Source: Acidobacteriota bacterium (GTDB lineage: Bacteria; Acidobacteriota; Blastocatellia; Pyrinomonadales; Pyrinomonadaceae). Taken from it: a DNA stretch of 64,000 nt. The translations under genes were made by a program, and so were the position numbers. The stretch is taken from the NCBI GenBank assembly GCA_019639135.1, contig JAHBSL010000009.1:62001-126000 (forward strand), written 5' to 3'. Positions 1,553 through 24,334 of this stretch are shown one piece after another (the first letter of the stretch is position 1; every line of letters starts with the position of its first letter). The notes below the pieces were generated by a model, which saw nothing but the letters and a program-made list of their open reading frames with translations, ran no database searches and was not told the DNA's origin.

Positions 1553-1607
1553 GCCGAAACTTGAGAGGGGTTTCGAGCCTGAAACCGGGTGTCCTTAATT
1601 CAGGTGC
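1553..1607 (+). promoter_or_regulatory. two-hairpin leader element, copy 1
   Basis: The sequence reads CGAAAC - loop TTGAGAGGG - GTTTCG, then CCTGAA (1578-1583) - 15-base loop - TTCAGG (1599-1604). Both stems are perfect inverted repeats. The same arrangement recurs at 2154-2210 with the first loop conserved, the second loop changed and the second stem kept, which suggests selection for structure. It lies about 60 bases before the DUF4326 gene. It could be a structured mRNA leader, a protein-binding site, or a single-strand promoter used when the element enters as ssDNA. Confidence 0.5.
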
Positions 1608-1668
1608 TGAGGAGGCAGCTTCCTTAAACAACGCTTCCCCGGGTTGGGTCCGGTTCAGGAGATCTCAC

Positions 1669-1961
1669 ATGACAGGTCAACAAACTCTCGTGGTTCACTG
1701 CAAGAAGGATAGATTCGACGTTTACATTGGACGGCCCTCGAAATGGGGCAACCCTTTTACACATTTGTCGGACCGAAAGACGAGGGCCGAGTTTATTGTC
1801 CGATCGAGAGAAGAAGCTGTTCGATGTTATGAGGAATATCTTTTCTCGAGTGGTTTGATCGCGGATATTGAAGAACTGCGGGGTAAGGTCCTCGATGCTG
1901 GTGCAGTCCAAAAGCGTATCACGGCGACGTGTTGGTCAGGGTATTAAATACTCTGGGTTAA
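1669..1961 (+). pseudogene. DUF4326 protein, interrupted by a -1 frameshift
   Basis: The ATG at 1669 follows AGGAGA with good spacing. The N-terminal part (VVHCKKDRFDVYIGRPSKWGNPF, about residues 8-30, then ELRGKVL) is a clear DUF4326 domain. After KVL the frame runs into unrelated sequence and stops at 1947. Reading the +1 frame from 1896 gives CWCSPKAYHGDVL and continues to a TAA at 1959-1961, exactly the Cys/His signature expected next in this family. One G appears to be missing at about 1894. DUF4326 proteins are typical of phages and conjugative elements and their Cys/His cluster suggests metal binding; function is unknown. The gene is either recently broken or carries a sequencing error. 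Confidence 0.75.
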
Positions 1962-2068
1962 GACCGAGAATGCGGTTTGGCCAATACGTGGCGCACAATT
2001 CCTCGCCGCCTCCCCGTCCCCTGGAACGGTTGCCGTTCCGCCCATGCACAACCAGACATAAGAGCACT

Positions 2069-2125
2069 CCAACCTTCGCCTATCTCCACCAAAAGCTAAC
2101 CGAATTGTCTTCGCCTGAAGGTTAG
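2069..2125 (+). pseudogene. C-terminal remnant of a second FGDN/GIPTK-family gene
   Basis: The plus-strand frame ending at the TAG at 2123-2125 reads PTFAYLHQKLTEL, matching RTFAYHQKRMTEI at the end of the gene at 1130-1519. Sequence further upstream (1962-2068) has no recognisable remainder of the family. As at 1130-1519, the fragment is followed by the two-hairpin element, so the pair (gene end plus leader element) looks like an old tandem duplication whose coding part has decayed. Apart from this remnant I see no gene in 1962-2273. Confidence 0.45.
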
Positions 2126-2153
2126 CTTCACCCGTTTATCCCGTATTGTCCAC

Positions 2154-2210
2154 GCCGAAACTTGAGAGGGATTTTCGAGCCTGAATGAAAGTGATTTTTT
2201 ATTCAGGGCT
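2154..2210 (+). promoter_or_regulatory. two-hairpin leader element, copy 2
   Basis: This second copy has CGAAA - loop containing CTTGAGAGGG - TTTCG, then CCTGAAT (2180-2186) - 14-base T-rich loop - ATTCAGG (2201-2207). The stretch GCCGAAACTTGAGAGGG is identical to copy 1, and TCGAGCCTGAA is shared. The second stem is one pair longer than in copy 1, while its loop sequence is unrelated. It lies about 65 bases before the 552-residue gene at 2274. Confidence 0.5.
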
Positions 2211-2273
2211 TTGAAAGCGCTGCCCTCAATACCACGCGTTTTCTCGGATCTCTCGATTCCGATATAGGAAGTT

Positions 2274-3932: not shown

Positions 3933-3958
3933 AAGTTGAATTGCAAAAACATTTGAAA

Positions 3959-4027
3959 GGGAGCGGCGGTCAGGCAAGTGGCGGAAATACAGGTTCCGGC
4001 CGCGAAATAGCCGGGCCGCCGCTTCCC
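3959..4027 (+). promoter_or_regulatory. large imperfect hairpin upstream of ssb copy 2
   Basis: The outer arms are GGGAGCGGCGG (3959-3969) and CCGCCGCTTCCC (4016-4027), an 11-pair stem with one bulged base. Inside lies a second perfect hairpin, CCGGC (3996-4000) and GCCGG (4010-4014) with a 9-base loop. There is no T-run after it, and it sits 40 bases before the ssb start, so a terminator is less likely than a leader structure or a folded ssDNA promoter. Confidence 0.5.
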
Positions 4028-4066
4028 GGACGGAGCAAAAATTAACCAAAGGAGCAAGAATAATCC

Positions 4067-4510: not shown

Positions 4511-4541
4511 GGCAGTTATTCGTTTTTGAAGTTCATTTACG

Positions 4542-4576
4542 GGCACCGACTCTCTCGGTGCCGATTTAATTTTTTC
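4542..4576 (+). terminator. rho-independent terminator after ssb copy 2
   Basis: A perfect 8-pair stem GGCACCGA (4542-4549) / TCGGTGCC (4555-4562) with a 5-base loop is followed by a T-rich run (4565-4576). It separates ssb from the RNase HI gene, whose ribosome site begins immediately after the T-run, so transcription attenuation or a hairpin promoter for the next gene is also possible. Confidence 0.7.
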
Positions 4577-4589
4577 GGGAGGTAAGTCT

Positions 4590-5513: not shown

Positions 5514-5668
5514 AGTTTTTAATCGACTCCTTTTGCAGTGGTAGTAGTAGCCGCGAGGAGTGCAATCAACTCATGTGCCAGCGAGACTTTGTCTCGGAAG
5601 GAGGTGATAAGCCCGGGGTCTTTGGCGTGTAAATAAGCCGCCCGACGCAAGCTGGTTCAAAAATGCGT

Positions 5669-5709
5669 AAAAGCCTGCTGTCACCGTACGACAGGATAGA
5701 CCGGCTTTT
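5669..5709 (-). other. oriT: candidate oriT with MOBP/RP4-like nic site
   Basis: Outer arms AAAAGCC (5669-5675) and GGCTTTT (5703-5709) enclose inner arms CTGTC (5678-5682) and GACAG (5690-5694). On the minus strand the core reads CTATCCTG followed by TCG, matching the YATCCTG/Y nic consensus of RP4-type (MOBP) relaxases; the plus-strand octamer CAGGATAG at 5692-5699 also occurs at the RP4 nic region as I remember it. The relaxase gene 0.8 kb away has MOBP-type histidines. Cleavage would fall between 5692 and 5691 on the minus strand, so DNA left of this point would be transferred first. Confidence 0.6.
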
Positions 5710-5757
5710 CGTTTCGTATTTCCCGCAAGTACTCACAGATACAAAGGTTTAAGGCTT

Positions 5758-5849
5758 GTACACAAGGTACACGAGTGCGAATACAAGTCCGCGAATTCAG
5801 ATACGGTGCGTATATTGCTTGGTTTCGCTTCGAATCGTTCGTACACAAA
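5758..5849. repeat. GTACAC direct repeats beside oriT
   Basis: Two 9-mers GTACACAAG and GTACACGAG are exactly in tandem at 5758-5775, and a third copy, GTACACAAA, is at 5841-5849, 45 bases before the accessory gene. The arrangement suggests binding sites for a relaxosome accessory protein that also represses the mobilisation operon. Confidence 0.5.
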
Positions 5850-5893
5850 GGCGGAGCTCCTTTTAACGAAATGAGCGGTTCGACGAGACGAAT

Positions 5894-12260: not shown

Positions 12261-14264
12261 TTATGCTGCTCCCCGCACCAACGGTGTTTTTTGTTCGTAC
12301 TGTCTTGCCAGGAACAATCGCGTGTGACCGACAAGATCGTTGAGATTTGGCGTGCAGGGGCGGCGGACTTCTGCTTCGGATTTGGGCACCTCTGTCGTGG
12401 CCGAGTGCTTGACCACGGATGGAAGCTTTTCGTTGGAATAGAGACGATCCACTTCGCCCGAAACACTATCCACTACGACCTTGTCCTGTTCGTTATTAGG
12501 TTCCGCAACCGCCTTCGGCATCGCCGCCGTCAATAAGAATGCCGGGTCGATATCTTGAAGGTGAACCTCTCGCGGCGAGCCTTTCCGTTCAGCCGCGTGA
12601 GCGTTCTTCAGCACCGCATACGGAGGATAGGCCGCCCGGATCGGCGGGGCGGTATCGCTGACTATGAGCACTTCCGAGTGCCTGGCTATCTGCCTTATCT
12701 CCGAAGCGTGCATAAGAGAGCGTCTCTGTTCCCCGTATCTGGTATTGTCGTGTTTCTTTCCCGGATAGTCCTGAAACGTTTTTGAGAATATCGTGGTATC
12801 GCCGAGCTGCTTCGAAGCGTATTCGGCGGTTACGTCGTCGAGACCGGGCAGGAATATCTTGGTGAGGAGAGTTCCGAGGATGGCGTTCGCCCGCTCCCGT
12901 CCGTACTGGTCGTACATCTGCGGAAGGTCCTGGTATCCGAGCCCCAAGCCGACACCGCGTCCGCGCCCGATCCCCGATATGCGCTTCACTTCCGCCACGT
13001 TAAGCTGGTACGCCTCGTCGATCAAAACGAAACACGGATGCTCAGGCTCGTTCAGGCCGTCGAGGCGCATTTCCATTACAGCTTGCCCGAGGAATGTTGC
13101 GATGAACTCTTTGTAGATATCGGCGGCTCCTTCGGAGACGACAAGATAAATGGCTGTTCCGGGTTTGCGAAGATTCGAGAAATCGATATTCCTGCAGCCT
13201 GCTTCTACTTCTTCCGCCGTTGGCGGCATTGTGACCATTCGAGCCGGTGCCAACGTGAAAGGCCGGAGCTTATTGTAAAGTCCGATCAGGATCGATCCCC
13301 GAGTTTGGATCGGAGCCTGTCGGAACGCTAAGTATGCCTGCTTAGCGTAAAGGCTCGGCGAGCTTTCCATCGCCTTTGCAAAAGCATCTTTGCCGTCTTC
13401 GCCTAATGAGATCAGGAAGTCGGCAGCAAATGCAGGAATCGCCTTCTCCCGATAAACCTCGGCGATGTGTAATAGGATGGCGGTCAACGCGATCTGTTCG
13501 GCGTCGCCCCAGAACGGATCGGCGTTTGTCTTGCGGCGGCTTTCGATCCCGATCATCATCCCGGCGACCTGGCACGCGAACGCGGGATCGTTCCGGCACT
13601 TCGGGATAAAGTTCCAGCGATCGCTTTTTGTCGGATCGTTCAGATCGAGGCGAAATATTCTTTTGGCGGACCCGGCGGTCTGAGCAAAAAGCTCACCCTT
13701 CGGGTCGTAAACGAGACACGAAGACTTTGCGAGAATCGCACGGATCATCGAAATGAAGAACGTTTTCGATTTGCCCGATCCGGTCGGCCCGAACATCACG
13801 AAATGCCGGAGCCATTGGCTCGGCGGAAGAAAAATGTCCCGGCCTCCGAACGCCTTCGCTATCGGCAGTGCATTAACGGGTAGAGGAAGTCCGCGAACGC
13901 TGTTCATCAGACCGCAACGGACAAGATCTCTCGCTTTCGCCCATCGAGCCGAACCGTGAGCCGTGCTCATCCTTCTTACGCGATAGTCGGAAACCTCCCC
14001 ATAGGCATCGAACAGTCCCCCGCAAATGCCGCAAAGAGCCATCGCCCAGAACGCCAGGTTGCTCGGTCCGGGTTGATCGAACAGCCATCCGCAAAATAGG
14101 AACATGCCCGCCTCGATCAGCCCGAGGCACATGTAAAATCCACCCCGCGCGACATCGGCGGCCCAATGCCAGAAAGCGTTGTACGAAGGCAAATACTGCT
14201 CGTTAGCCTTCCGGGGGATTCCGTATGAAGCGTCGAATCTTTCTATCCGTTCACGGGTAAGCAT
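12261..14264 (-). CDS. virD4: type IV coupling protein (VirD4/TraG family)
   Basis: A 667-residue inner-membrane ATPase that brings the relaxase-DNA complex to the secretion channel. Two or three membrane segments lie at about residues 40-85, Walker A is GPTGSGKS at 159-166 and Walker B is CFVLIDEAYQL near residue 415. Sequence such as FGGRDIFLPPSQWLRHFVMFGPTGSGKS is typical of TraG/VirD4. The C-terminal ~100 residues are a variable tail. It follows the 277-residue-frame membrane protein by 6 bases on the minus strand and closes the VirB8-B10 operon together with the small membrane protein. Confidence 0.95.
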   Translation of the reverse strand: MLTRERIERFDASYGIPRKANEQYLPSYNAFWHWAADVARGGFYMCLGLIEAGMFLFCGWLFDQPGPSNLAFWAMALCGICGGLFDAYGEVSDYRVRRMSTAHGSARWAKARDLVRCGLMNSVRGLPLPVNALPIAKAFGGRDIFLPPSQWLRHFVMFGPTGSGKSKTFFISMIRAILAKSSCLVYDPKGELFAQTAGSAKRIFRLDLNDPTKSDRWNFIPKCRNDPAFACQVAGMMIGIESRRKTNADPFWGDAEQIALTAILLHIAEVYREKAIPAFAADFLISLGEDGKDAFAKAMESSPSLYAKQAYLAFRQAPIQTRGSILIGLYNKLRPFTLAPARMVTMPPTAEEVEAGCRNIDFSNLRKPGTAIYLVVSEGAADIYKEFIATFLGQAVMEMRLDGLNEPEHPCFVLIDEAYQLNVAEVKRISGIGRGRGVGLGLGYQDLPQMYDQYGRERANAILGTLLTKIFLPGLDDVTAEYASKQLGDTTIFSKTFQDYPGKKHDNTRYGEQRRSLMHASEIRQIARHSEVLIVSDTAPPIRAAYPPYAVLKNAHAAERKGSPREVHLQDIDPAFLLTAAMPKAVAEPNNEQDKVVVDSVSGEVDRLYSNEKLPSVVKHSATTEVPKSEAEVRRPCTPNLNDLVGHTRLFLARQYEQKTPLVRGAA

Positions 14265-21469: not shown

Positions 21470-24334
21470 ATGGACACAGCAAATCTTTCATTCGCACACG
21501 TAGCGATCTCACTTTTCGGAAGTCTGTTTTCTATTGGGCTGGCGCTTGTGGTCGGTTACCGGATCGTTCCGGCATTCAGGGCCCACAAGGGACACTTAGC
21601 GGTTCACTCGAATCCCACCGCGGTCCAATATACAAAGATCACCCAACCGGGACGGCTGTTCCCGACCGAGATCGCCGGTCTCGACGGCAACATAATTCGC
21701 TATAGAGATGGGAGCTACGGAAAAGCCTACGTCTTCGATCCCGCGAACAGTCTCTACGTTGACGGAAACGTAACCGAACAACGCATCGAGGAACTCAAAA
21801 CCATTCTCATATTCGAGAAGCCGAAGAACACGATCATCCAGTTTCGGTTCCTCAATTCGCCCGATACAGGAGAGGTGCTCCGGGATCATCTGCGCTCGCG
21901 CGATGCGGAATCGGCGGACCCGATCGCCGGTGTCCTTCACGCGACCAACCTTTCGCTTCATGAAGAAGCTATTCGGTCGGGCAACGTCATGCGGCAGACT
22001 GCAACCGTCTGGATACGCGTGCCGGTCCGGGACTCGGCCGATAAAGGAATGCTTTCGTCTTTACTGCCTTCGCTTCTCCGGGACGTGAAGGAGAACGGGA
22101 TCGCATATTTTTTACGCTCCCCCTTCTTAAGAATAAGAAATCGCGAAAGTGAATTGTTGGTGAAACGTGAAATGCGAAGTGAAGCCGTGTGCAGATCGAA
22201 GGCGTCACGCGTATTCCAGTCATTCGAAGCAAACTTCCCGCGGAGCCTTCAGTTACGCGAGATGACCCGGCCGGAAGTTTTCGAGGCACTTTTCATCAGT
22301 CATCGGAGGGAGCATCGATCCGCACCCATTCTTCCTAAGTTTGCGTTCGTCGATATAAGGCGTTATCTGTGCAGTACAGAGATCGAAAGCGCGCGAGACC
22401 AATTCGTTCGGCACGACGGCACGCCCGTGAGTCTGGTCAGCCTGAAAACCCTTCCGAACGGCTTCGTGACCGCAGATGTTATGCGGTACCTGACGGCGAC
22501 GCGAGCACTCGGATTTCCTCATGAAATCGTTGTGGATCTGATGACCACGGAAAAGCAGGCCGCGAAAAAGGACCTTCAAAAGCGCATCGACCGGATCGAG
22601 GGCAGCCGCAACACCTGGCTTGGATTTCGGAACTTGAAGAAGGACGCGATAGTCATCAAATCCGATCTGGAGAATCTTTTGGAGCAGGTCGAAAGCGATA
22701 ACGAAGAGATCTGCAACCTCCGACTTAACGTGATTGTCTTTGCCGGACGCTCGAAAGGAGCAAAAGAGACGCGGAAGCAGCTTGAGTTACTGGACGAACG
22801 ATGCGATGCCGTGGTGTCAGCTATCCGCAAAAAGATAGGTGCCGATGCGGTTCGTGAAGATGCTGTTCGTCAGCGAGCGCTCTATCCTCGGATGCTTGCG
22901 GGCGAACTATCAGCGAATCGGACCGGTCAAGAGCTTACCGAAACCGCTGACTCGGTCATAGCCTTTGTTCCAGCCGAGACGAGTTGGCGAGGCAGCAAAA
23001 GGCCGCACAGCATCTTTACCACTCCGAACGGACAGATGTTCGGCCTCGACCTGTACGACCGATCCTTGATCAAATCACCGACCGTGATCGTGACGGCAGC
23101 ATCGGGTGAGGGAAAGTCGTTCCTTGCGTCGATGCTGATCACGGACATCCGTGCTCATCGCGGGAAAGTAAAAGTGCGCGTAATGGATTATCGCCATTCG
23201 TTCAAGCCCATCTGTCGGCTATTCGGCGGAAGGCAGATAGAGTTCACCGAAAAAGATCCAAGACCGATCAATATCTGGAACTATCCGTACATCGAGAACG
23301 GCGCGCCCCCGACCAAACGGCAGCTCGCGATGGTCCTCACGGACATCCTGATCCTGAGCAAGACGCCGAAGACCGACGCGATCACAAGCGCGATCGCGTC
23401 GACCGTAATAGATGAGGTCTATAAGATGGCCCTCGCACGGAACGGTCACGGCCGCCCGAAGTTCCAGCCGACCCTCGGGCACTTCCTCGACATCCTGAAA
23501 AGCTACCACTGGAATCTTGGTGAAGAGAGACACGCCAATGAGCTCTACCTGAAGCTGAACGTTCACCGAAAAGACCCGTGGCTGAACGCTCCGACGCACC
23601 CCGAATACGACGAGCCTTCGATGTTCGATGTGTTCGAACTGTCGGGCATAAGCAGCCTCGACGAGAAGATCCGCGAAAGCGTCGGCTTCAGGATCAGCGC
23701 ACAGATCATGCAGGAGATCGGCGAGGAAAATGCCCAGCACCAAAAGACTCCGATCCTTTTCCTTTGCGACGAGATGCGCGAGATCAACCGCCATTTCCCG
23801 GCTATTCAGGAACTGATCGCGGAGGCCACAGTCACCGGGCGAAAGGAAGGGCTTGTCACTGTACTTTTCTCGCAAGCCTATGAGCATTTCACCGGCACAC
23901 CTGAGCAGCCGAACGTAACGGGCGTCGATCTCGTCAAGAATTCGGGTGTGAAGATGATCGGGAAACAGATCGGCGGCTTCGAGCGTCTCGCTGACGATTG
24001 CGAGCTTGCTCACGAGACCGTCGCCGCGATCCGGGGAATCAGGAACCAATACGGCCGTTACACGCAATGGGTGTTTGTCATCGGTAGCGGCGTGGACAAG
24101 ATCGTCCAGATGGCGGAGATCCGTCTCTCGCCCGCGATGCTGTGGGCGAACACGAACGACACGAACGAGGCGAATGCCCGGCGGCTTGTCGAGAATATTC
24201 GACCCGACCTACCTCCGGAGATCGTCGTCTCTTGGCTGGCCTCGAAATATCCGAGCGGCTTGACCGCGGTCGGCCTCACGGGGATCTCTCCCATAGACCT
24301 GAATGAACTTAGCGGCTTGGAGGTGGCGGCATGA
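21470..24334 (+). CDS. virB4: VirB4/TrbE family conjugal ATPase
   Basis: A 954-residue ATPase that powers pilus assembly and substrate transfer. An N-terminal membrane segment (about residues 9-31) is present, which only some VirB4 proteins carry. Walker A is ASGEGKS with Lys549 and Walker B is PILFLCDEMREI near residue 767, followed by VTVLFSQAYEHF. Length and motifs match full-size VirB4. Its stop overlaps the start of the next gene by 4 bases. Confidence 0.95.
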   Translation: MDTANLSFAHVAISLFGSLFSIGLALVVGYRIVPAFRAHKGHLAVHSNPTAVQYTKITQPGRLFPTEIAGLDGNIIRYRDGSYGKAYVFDPANSLYVDGNVTEQRIEELKTILIFEKPKNTIIQFRFLNSPDTGEVLRDHLRSRDAESADPIAGVLHATNLSLHEEAIRSGNVMRQTATVWIRVPVRDSADKGMLSSLLPSLLRDVKENGIAYFLRSPFLRIRNRESELLVKREMRSEAVCRSKASRVFQSFEANFPRSLQLREMTRPEVFEALFISHRREHRSAPILPKFAFVDIRRYLCSTEIESARDQFVRHDGTPVSLVSLKTLPNGFVTADVMRYLTATRALGFPHEIVVDLMTTEKQAAKKDLQKRIDRIEGSRNTWLGFRNLKKDAIVIKSDLENLLEQVESDNEEICNLRLNVIVFAGRSKGAKETRKQLELLDERCDAVVSAIRKKIGADAVREDAVRQRALYPRMLAGELSANRTGQELTETADSVIAFVPAETSWRGSKRPHSIFTTPNGQMFGLDLYDRSLIKSPTVIVTAASGEGKSFLASMLITDIRAHRGKVKVRVMDYRHSFKPICRLFGGRQIEFTEKDPRPINIWNYPYIENGAPPTKRQLAMVLTDILILSKTPKTDAITSAIASTVIDEVYKMALARNGHGRPKFQPTLGHFLDILKSYHWNLGEERHANELYLKLNVHRKDPWLNAPTHPEYDEPSMFDVFELSGISSLDEKIRESVGFRISAQIMQEIGEENAQHQKTPILFLCDEMREINRHFPAIQELIAEATVTGRKEGLVTVLFSQAYEHFTGTPEQPNVTGVDLVKNSGVKMIGKQIGGFERLADDCELAHETVAAIRGIRNQYGRYTQWVFVIGSGVDKIVQMAEIRLSPAMLWANTNDTNEANARRLVENIRPDLPPEIVVSWLASKYPSGLTAVGLTGISPIDLNELSGLEVAA

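Follow-up and report, generated by a model that had tools for sequence, protein, structure and literature searches.

A pseudoknotted leader RNA located 5' of P552 and DUF4326 genes in a mobile module of Acidobacteria

A conserved structured RNA, which is formed on the sense strand and contains two crossing stems kept by compensatory change, is located directly 5' of two gene families (viz. P552 and DUF4326) of a mobile module found in Acidobacteria, and it is probably a pseudoknotted cis-regulatory leader. This RNA was uncatalogued before and it represents a new family with a defined consensus. In Rfam 15 (4227 families), 0 matches at the gathering score were obtained anywhere in the window (i.e. 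the whole stretch of 64,000 nucleotides that was analysed, which belongs to a 149-kb contig), and the best weak match over the element scored 14.5 bits against a cut-off of 45. In terms of function, the reading that we favour, with moderate confidence, is that of a new cis-acting leader RNA of P552 and DUF4326, carried by a conjugative element of Pyrinomonadaceae and exerting translational control, probably via an element-encoded protein in a manner similar to that of T4 gene 32.

An earlier note on this DNA had described a block with two hairpins that is repeated at positions 1553 and 2154. The repeat is confirmed by an exact 17-mer, GCCGAAACTTGAGAGGG, which is present in both places (1553-1569 and 2154-2170) and at no other site in the 4.09-Mb genome. 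When up to 3 mismatches are allowed, the window contains 2 matches to this 17-mer versus 0.30 expected, both of them exact, and GAAACTTGAGAGGG at up to 1 mismatch is found at two places only in the whole 4.09-Mb genome, which are the same as the repeat copies. The block does not end at 1607/2210, as the repeat forms the 5' part of an element of ~110 nt, which extends up to the Shine-Dalgarno sequence of the DUF4326 gene (copy 1) or the P552 gene (copy 2). Both copies had been stated to follow a gene of the FGDN/GIPTK type, and this is indeed the case, with copy 1 coming after the intact DUF7831 gene (1130-1519) and copy 2 after what is left of a DUF7831 3' end. This remnant is the trace of a tandem duplication of the DUF7831 end together with the leader, which accounts for the two-copy layout. 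The coordinates of the two copies and of the genes around them are listed in Table 1.

Table 1. Positions in the window of the two leader copies, their helices and the associated genes
Feature	Position	Strand	Details
Whole leader element, copy 1	1558-1668	+	5' of DUF4326 gene (start 1669); covariance-model match 1558-1640, 30.6 bits, E=8.5e-6 in window
P1 hairpin, copy 1	1560-1577	+	1560-1564 with 1573-1577; from sequence, aligned by covariance model
Pseudoknot stem 1, copy 1	1602-1624	+	AGG.U.GCU 1602-1608 with AGC.UU.CCU 1617-1624; same in five DUF4326 leaders
Pseudoknot stem 2, copy 1	1611-1638	+	GGAGGC 1611-1616 with GCUUCC 1633-1638
DUF4326 gene	1669-1947	+	downstream of copy 1; PF14216, E=1.5e-11
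DUF7831 3' end remnant	about 2070-2118	+	before copy 2; translated TFAYLHQKLTELSSPE versus DUF7831 C-terminus TFAYHQKRMTEIAS
Whole leader element, copy 2	2159-2273	+	5' of P552 (start 2274); match to covariance model R1 2159-2245, 101.9 bits
P1 hairpin, copy 2	2161-2179	+	CUUGA-gagggauuU-UCGAG, 2161-2165 with 2175-2179; near-invariant loop AGGGAUUU
P2 hairpin, copy 2	2180-2207	+	CCUGAAU 2180-2186 with AUUCAGG 2201-2207; GUGA loop region
Pseudoknot stem 1, copy 2	2205-2226	+	AGGGC 2205-2209 with GCCCU 2222-2226
Pseudoknot stem 2, copy 2	2213-2243	+	GAAAGCGCU 2213-2221 with CGCGUUUUC 2235-2243
P4 hairpin	2244-2262	+	between pseudoknot and Shine-Dalgarno
Shine-Dalgarno-like AGGAAG	2266-2271	+	then ATG at 2274; AGGAAG/GAGG there in homologues
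P552 gene	2274-3932	+	uncharacterised, 552 aa, downstream of copy 2
TraG/VirD4 coupling protein	12261-14264		
TraG P-loop/VirB4-like ATPase	21470-24334		

The sense transcript would fold, from its 5' end, into the P1 hairpin with a near-invariant AGGGAUUUU loop and, in most copies, the P2 hairpin, and then into an H-type pseudoknot (stem 1 of ~5 bp and stem 2 of ~9 bp) and the P4 hairpin, which would end just 5' of the Shine-Dalgarno sequence. The P1 helix (CUUGA/UCRAG), which overlaps hairpin 1 of the earlier note, is paired in 82% of the cells in 35 homologues; compared with a phylogeny-aware null, 84.8% of its cells are paired versus 41.3% (p=0.0005), with the sequence being nearly invariant. 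Hairpin 1 as it had been drawn (CGAAA/TTTCG) is not a kept stem, as all five of its pairs are present in 5/35 homologues and 58% of its cells are paired. P2, which is the same as the previously drawn hairpin 2, is kept in a part of the family and is clade-specific (76.4% paired versus a null of 61.2%, p=0.016), but its Watson-Crick pair types are not above the null, leaving it without compensatory support, and its bases overlap those of the better-supported pseudoknot. Two G residues (G2206-G2207 in copy 2) belong to P2 as well as to stem 1 in the main clade, and hence P2 can be present only in a shortened form when the pseudoknot is complete. Thus, although the complementary segments named in the earlier note are found in both copies, it will be incorrect to interpret the stems as drawn as the selected structure; the conserved fold is another one, the core of which is an H-type pseudoknot.

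In the curated strands, this pseudoknot consists of 5 pairs in stem 1 and 9 pairs in stem 2, with a loop 1 of 3 (rarely 5) nt, a loop 2 of 0 (once 1) nt and a loop 3 of 6-9 nt; in copy 2, these loops correspond to 2210-2212, 0 nt and 2227-2234, respectively. From the loop geometry, we infer that the two stems are formed simultaneously, although they could instead be alternatives to each other. Among the homologues, stem 1 is found as AGGGC/GCCCU, UGGGC/GCCCA, UAGGC/GCCUA, AGGUG/CACCU and GGGGC/GCCCC, and the variants of stem 2 include GAAAGCGCU/CGCGUUUUC, GAGAACACU/AGUGUUCUC, GAACUCGCG/CGUGAGUUC and GCAAGUGUC/GGCACUUGC, besides others. P4 is found at a constant position in the P552 leaders, and its sequence differs among them (UCCGGC/GCCGGA, CCAACC/GGUUGG, CGGC/GCCG). 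In the leaders of the DUF4326 genes, the CCUG block is kept, as are P1 and the overall plan of the pseudoknot, while the stem sequences are particular to them (for stem 2, GGGAGG/CCUCUC and GGGAGGC/GCCUUUC in copies other than that of the window); the pseudoknot of these five leaders, which a strict unbiased search did not pick, was placed by hand and is weaker evidence. The conserved unpaired blocks of the element are the P1 loop, CCUG and GUG.

A pattern search of the order allowing one mismatch revealed paired copies in two further genomes, and a search with P552 identified >30 homologues, nearly all upstream regions of which contain a clearly related leader. A covariance-model search, of the kind proposed in the earlier note, was made with model R1 and detected 37 sites at E<=0.01 in 22 of the 119 related genomes. 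Thirty-two of these sites are directly 5' of P552 and 4 are 5' of DUF4326, while the remaining one (in genome G014, locus L119) is a hairpin/terminator between two convergent genes and was rejected as a chance match. Within the same 119 genomes, the leader is present in 32/32 P552 genes that show >=55% identity and have upstream sequence, and it precedes 5/5 DUF4326 genes of the same module, the fifth of which (L137) was detected when the loci were searched alone. In the distant P552 genes (45% identity, L085-L087), the P1 and GUG motifs are kept and the pseudoknot is not. An even sample of 396 genomes from the phylum yielded the element and P552 neither in other classes of Acidobacteriota nor elsewhere outside the genus; viral contigs lacked the exact motif as well as P552, and plasmids lacked P552 and any DNA match to the leader. 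In the genome under study, two further P552 genes preceded by leaders are located on different contigs (G000:C38:158637-160292 and G000:C10:88446-90062), and the genome may thus carry three related mobile modules. The same module, with a P552 identity of 71%, was also observed in a contig labelled Patescibacteria (JALHMV010000009.1), which is probably a mis-binned Acidobacteria contig. The suggestion made earlier that the repeat could be an undescribed structured RNA is thus borne out by homologues in some 20 related genomes, by the Rfam result, and by the compensatory changes in both pseudoknot stems.

The latter changes were evaluated against a null in which every column evolved independently on the leader tree (2000 runs). 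The pairs of stems 1 and 2 taken together are kept on the sense strand in 98.1% of the cells versus 73.5±4.6% under the null, and they show 15 extra Watson-Crick pair types versus 4.2 (p=0.0005 for each). For stem 1 alone, 97.9% of the cells are paired versus 81.7% (p=0.0005 for the paired cells as well as the extra Watson-Crick types), and for stem 2 the corresponding values are 98.3% versus 68.4%, with 10 extra Watson-Crick types versus 3.0 (p=0.0005). As the curation of the strands was done by eye and preceded the counting, these values somewhat favour the structure, whereas two other analyses are free of that bias. In a machine alignment, both sides have changed in 8/9 pairs of stem 2 and the observed score was reached by 0/500 shuffles, and an unbiased pseudoknot search of each sequence recovered the same geometry in most of the P552 leaders, usually scoring above all 40 dinucleotide shuffles, although it was unsuccessful for the DUF4326 leaders and for L085-L087, which are distant. 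An all-against-all test similar to R-scape, the power of which is low due to few substitutions, a shallow tree and few related sequences, gave no single pair at E<0.05. The support for the pseudoknot therefore stands at the level of helices and not of single pairs, and the check for covariation proposed in the earlier note has a positive outcome for stems 1 and 2 at that level and a negative one for hairpin 2. Minimum-energy folding gave z values of -0.3 and -1.9, but such folds are nested and hence uninformative for a pseudoknot.

These data also indicate the strand on which the fold is formed. In stems 1 and 2, G·U is found in 41 cells of the sense strand and A·C in 2. Wobbles formed on the template strand would be seen in the sense sequence as A·C, which is not the case, and the fold is therefore on the mRNA-sense strand; for the opposite strand, stem 2 does not exceed the null (p=0.08). 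In IncI-type repZ control, an antisense RNA blocks pseudoknot formation. The presence in a mobile element of loop-closed hairpins beside a pseudoknot is reminiscent of a target of this kind, but for stem 2 there is no sign of selection for structure on the opposite strand, and a scan of the region gave no promoter-like site, and we regard an antisense RNA target as highly improbable. The pattern of wobbles also argues against the other alternative of the earlier note, viz. a folded single-strand DNA promoter of the Frpo/ssi type, which is used when the transferred strand enters. As with Frpo/ssi, hairpins precede the leading-region genes of a conjugative element here; the module resembles a leading region, contains SSB genes and adjoins the MobL relaxase and T4SS genes, and such promoters are known from places of this kind (PMC11541004). 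However, the function of Frpo requires that the transferred strand mimic a duplex promoter (PMC11541004), whereas the present fold, with its G·U pairs, is that of the sense strand and not of the template, which would be the transferred strand as judged from gene orientation. In addition, its structure is kept up to the Shine-Dalgarno sequence, which would be inside the transcript, and a consensus scan, from which Acidobacteriota promoters may differ, found 0 sigma-70-like -35/-10 sites in 1400-2400 on either strand. A promoter of this type is thus very unlikely.

As the element abuts the ribosome-binding site and a terminator-like site (a GC-rich hairpin followed by a U run) was not found in 1400-2400, it would act in translation initiation. 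An attenuator based on an intrinsic terminator was rejected on the latter ground, and so was one based on a leader peptide (ATG AAA GTG ATT TTT TAT TCA GGG CTT TGA, at ~2185-2214), the frame of which is open in the window copy and L059 but is lost among the homologues, with a one-base length difference among the close homologues L058, L059 and L063 and no ATG in the clade of L070-L076; this possibility is practically nil. The Shine-Dalgarno sequence lies outside any conserved helix, and due to this a simple switch of the ribosome-binding site is not evident. Its being left open in the conserved structure is consistent with the main rival of our reading, according to which the leader is a translational enhancer, a ribosome-standby or S1-binding structure, or serves to stabilise the mRNA, with no regulator dedicated to it. 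A precedent is provided by the tisB mRNA, in the 5' UTR of which a pseudoknot recruits 30S/S1 and has been proposed to control the initiation of translation (PMC7708055); however, tisB combines a sequestered ribosome-binding site with a standby site that is single-stranded and distant (PMC7708055), and neither is evident here. Further, the near-invariant unpaired AGGGAUUUU, CCUG and GUG exceed the needs of a generic standby site and the element is confined to two gene families of one mobile module, and this explanation, while possible, appears to us rather doubtful. A small-molecule riboswitch also merits consideration, as the element has the compact pseudoknot in a bacterial mRNA leader seen in preQ1-II and SAM-II (and in the rpsO ribosomal-protein leader), conserved unpaired bases and an adjoining ribosome-binding site, and a nucleotide signal is thinkable given that DUF4326 is proposed to process ADP-ribose phosphates (PMC9503650). 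However, unlike these RNAs, no Rfam model matches it and no metabolic or ribosomal gene is downstream; the genes belong to one mobile element family and P552 is not a known enzyme, making a riboswitch quite unlikely.

The genes around the element are a YspA-type SLOG gene, SSB, DUF7831, DUF4326, P552, a second SSB, RNase HI and a MobL relaxase, and the order YspA-SSB-DUF7831-(DUF4326)-P552-SSB-RNaseH-relaxase is kept in most of the 32 loci, which are from Acidobacteria MAGs, several of them labelled Pyrinomonadaceae. The nearby TraG/VirD4 coupling protein and TraG P-loop/VirB4-like ATPase identify this as a conjugative element. The genes from YspA to RNase HI are oriented toward a gap of 380 nt (5514-5893) beside the MobL relaxase, which has divergent genes on either side and is a candidate oriT region; if this gap holds oriT, as it could, the layout would be that of a classical leading region with the template as the transferred strand. 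Other leaders in the module also contain conserved features. Those of the SSB genes (3933-4066 and 453-596) share a different conserved motif, AGCGGCGG..CAG, and a helix in the SSB2 leader (GGCGGY/RCCGCC) varies with pairing kept over 27 loci; these leaders gave no R1 match and are not members of the R1 family, but they may represent another family of structured leaders within this module. The DUF7831 leader (1005-1129) contains a long hairpin (GGACCGCCGTCA.. / ..GGTGGTCC), the sequence of which is changed in several loci, and a terminator-like arrangement, viz. a hairpin similar to GGGCACCGA/TCGGTGCC followed by a T-rich stretch, is seen before the RNase HI gene (4511-4589) in many loci.

For the P552 protein, Pfam, PHROGs and PADLOC gave no family, a sequence search of the PDB gave no relative, and the one match in NCBIfam was far below the cut-off. 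Its AlphaFold2 model is poor (mean pLDDT 67), and fold searches with Foldseek and VIA-align, in which helical matches with Z under 7 were counted as uninformative, gave no informative match and no recognised RNA-binding fold. The family is found in Pyrinomonadaceae, with distant members elsewhere in the class, and two such members adjoin genes for a RecD-like helicase (L176) and a DNA cytosine methyltransferase (L177), these names being based on translated sequences.

Returning to translational control as the favoured reading, the leader probably sets the amount of protein made from P552 and DUF4326. The near-invariance of the unpaired blocks suggests a specific binder, and this conserved unpaired sequence would be read by an RNA-binding protein encoded by the element, for which P552 is the first candidate because the element was not found in any genome without P552. 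With the binder and the direction of control that we infer, both genes would be kept at a given level, or be released jointly once the element enters a new cell. A precedent for a pseudoknot operator is that of T4 gene 32, in which a pseudoknot of ~28 nt is followed by an unstructured UUAAA-rich stretch (PMC535899). Both systems have an H-type pseudoknot in the intercistronic leader of a mobile genome, at a distance of at least some 40 nt upstream of the start codon, and the present module encodes two SSBs. However, in place of the UUAAA-rich stretch, which was looked for, the P4 hairpin is present here; the present leader also has an additional hairpin on its 5' side, the loop of which is invariant, and the genes behind the leader are P552 and DUF4326 rather than SSB genes. 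It is conceivable, though only tentatively proposed, that these features make up an RNA regulon in which P552 recognises the pseudoknot of its own mRNA as an operator, together with a duplicated copy at the neighbouring gene, thereby timing leading-region synthesis after conjugation.

The consensus of the new RNA family can be used for Rfam and for the annotation of ICEs, and the uncharacterised P552 family is tied by it to a probable RNA target. The known early control of leading regions is by single-stranded DNA promoters, and a conserved pseudoknot leader would add a step at the level of translation. If the regulon reading is true, zygotic expression in these elements would be controlled at translation and not at the promoter level.
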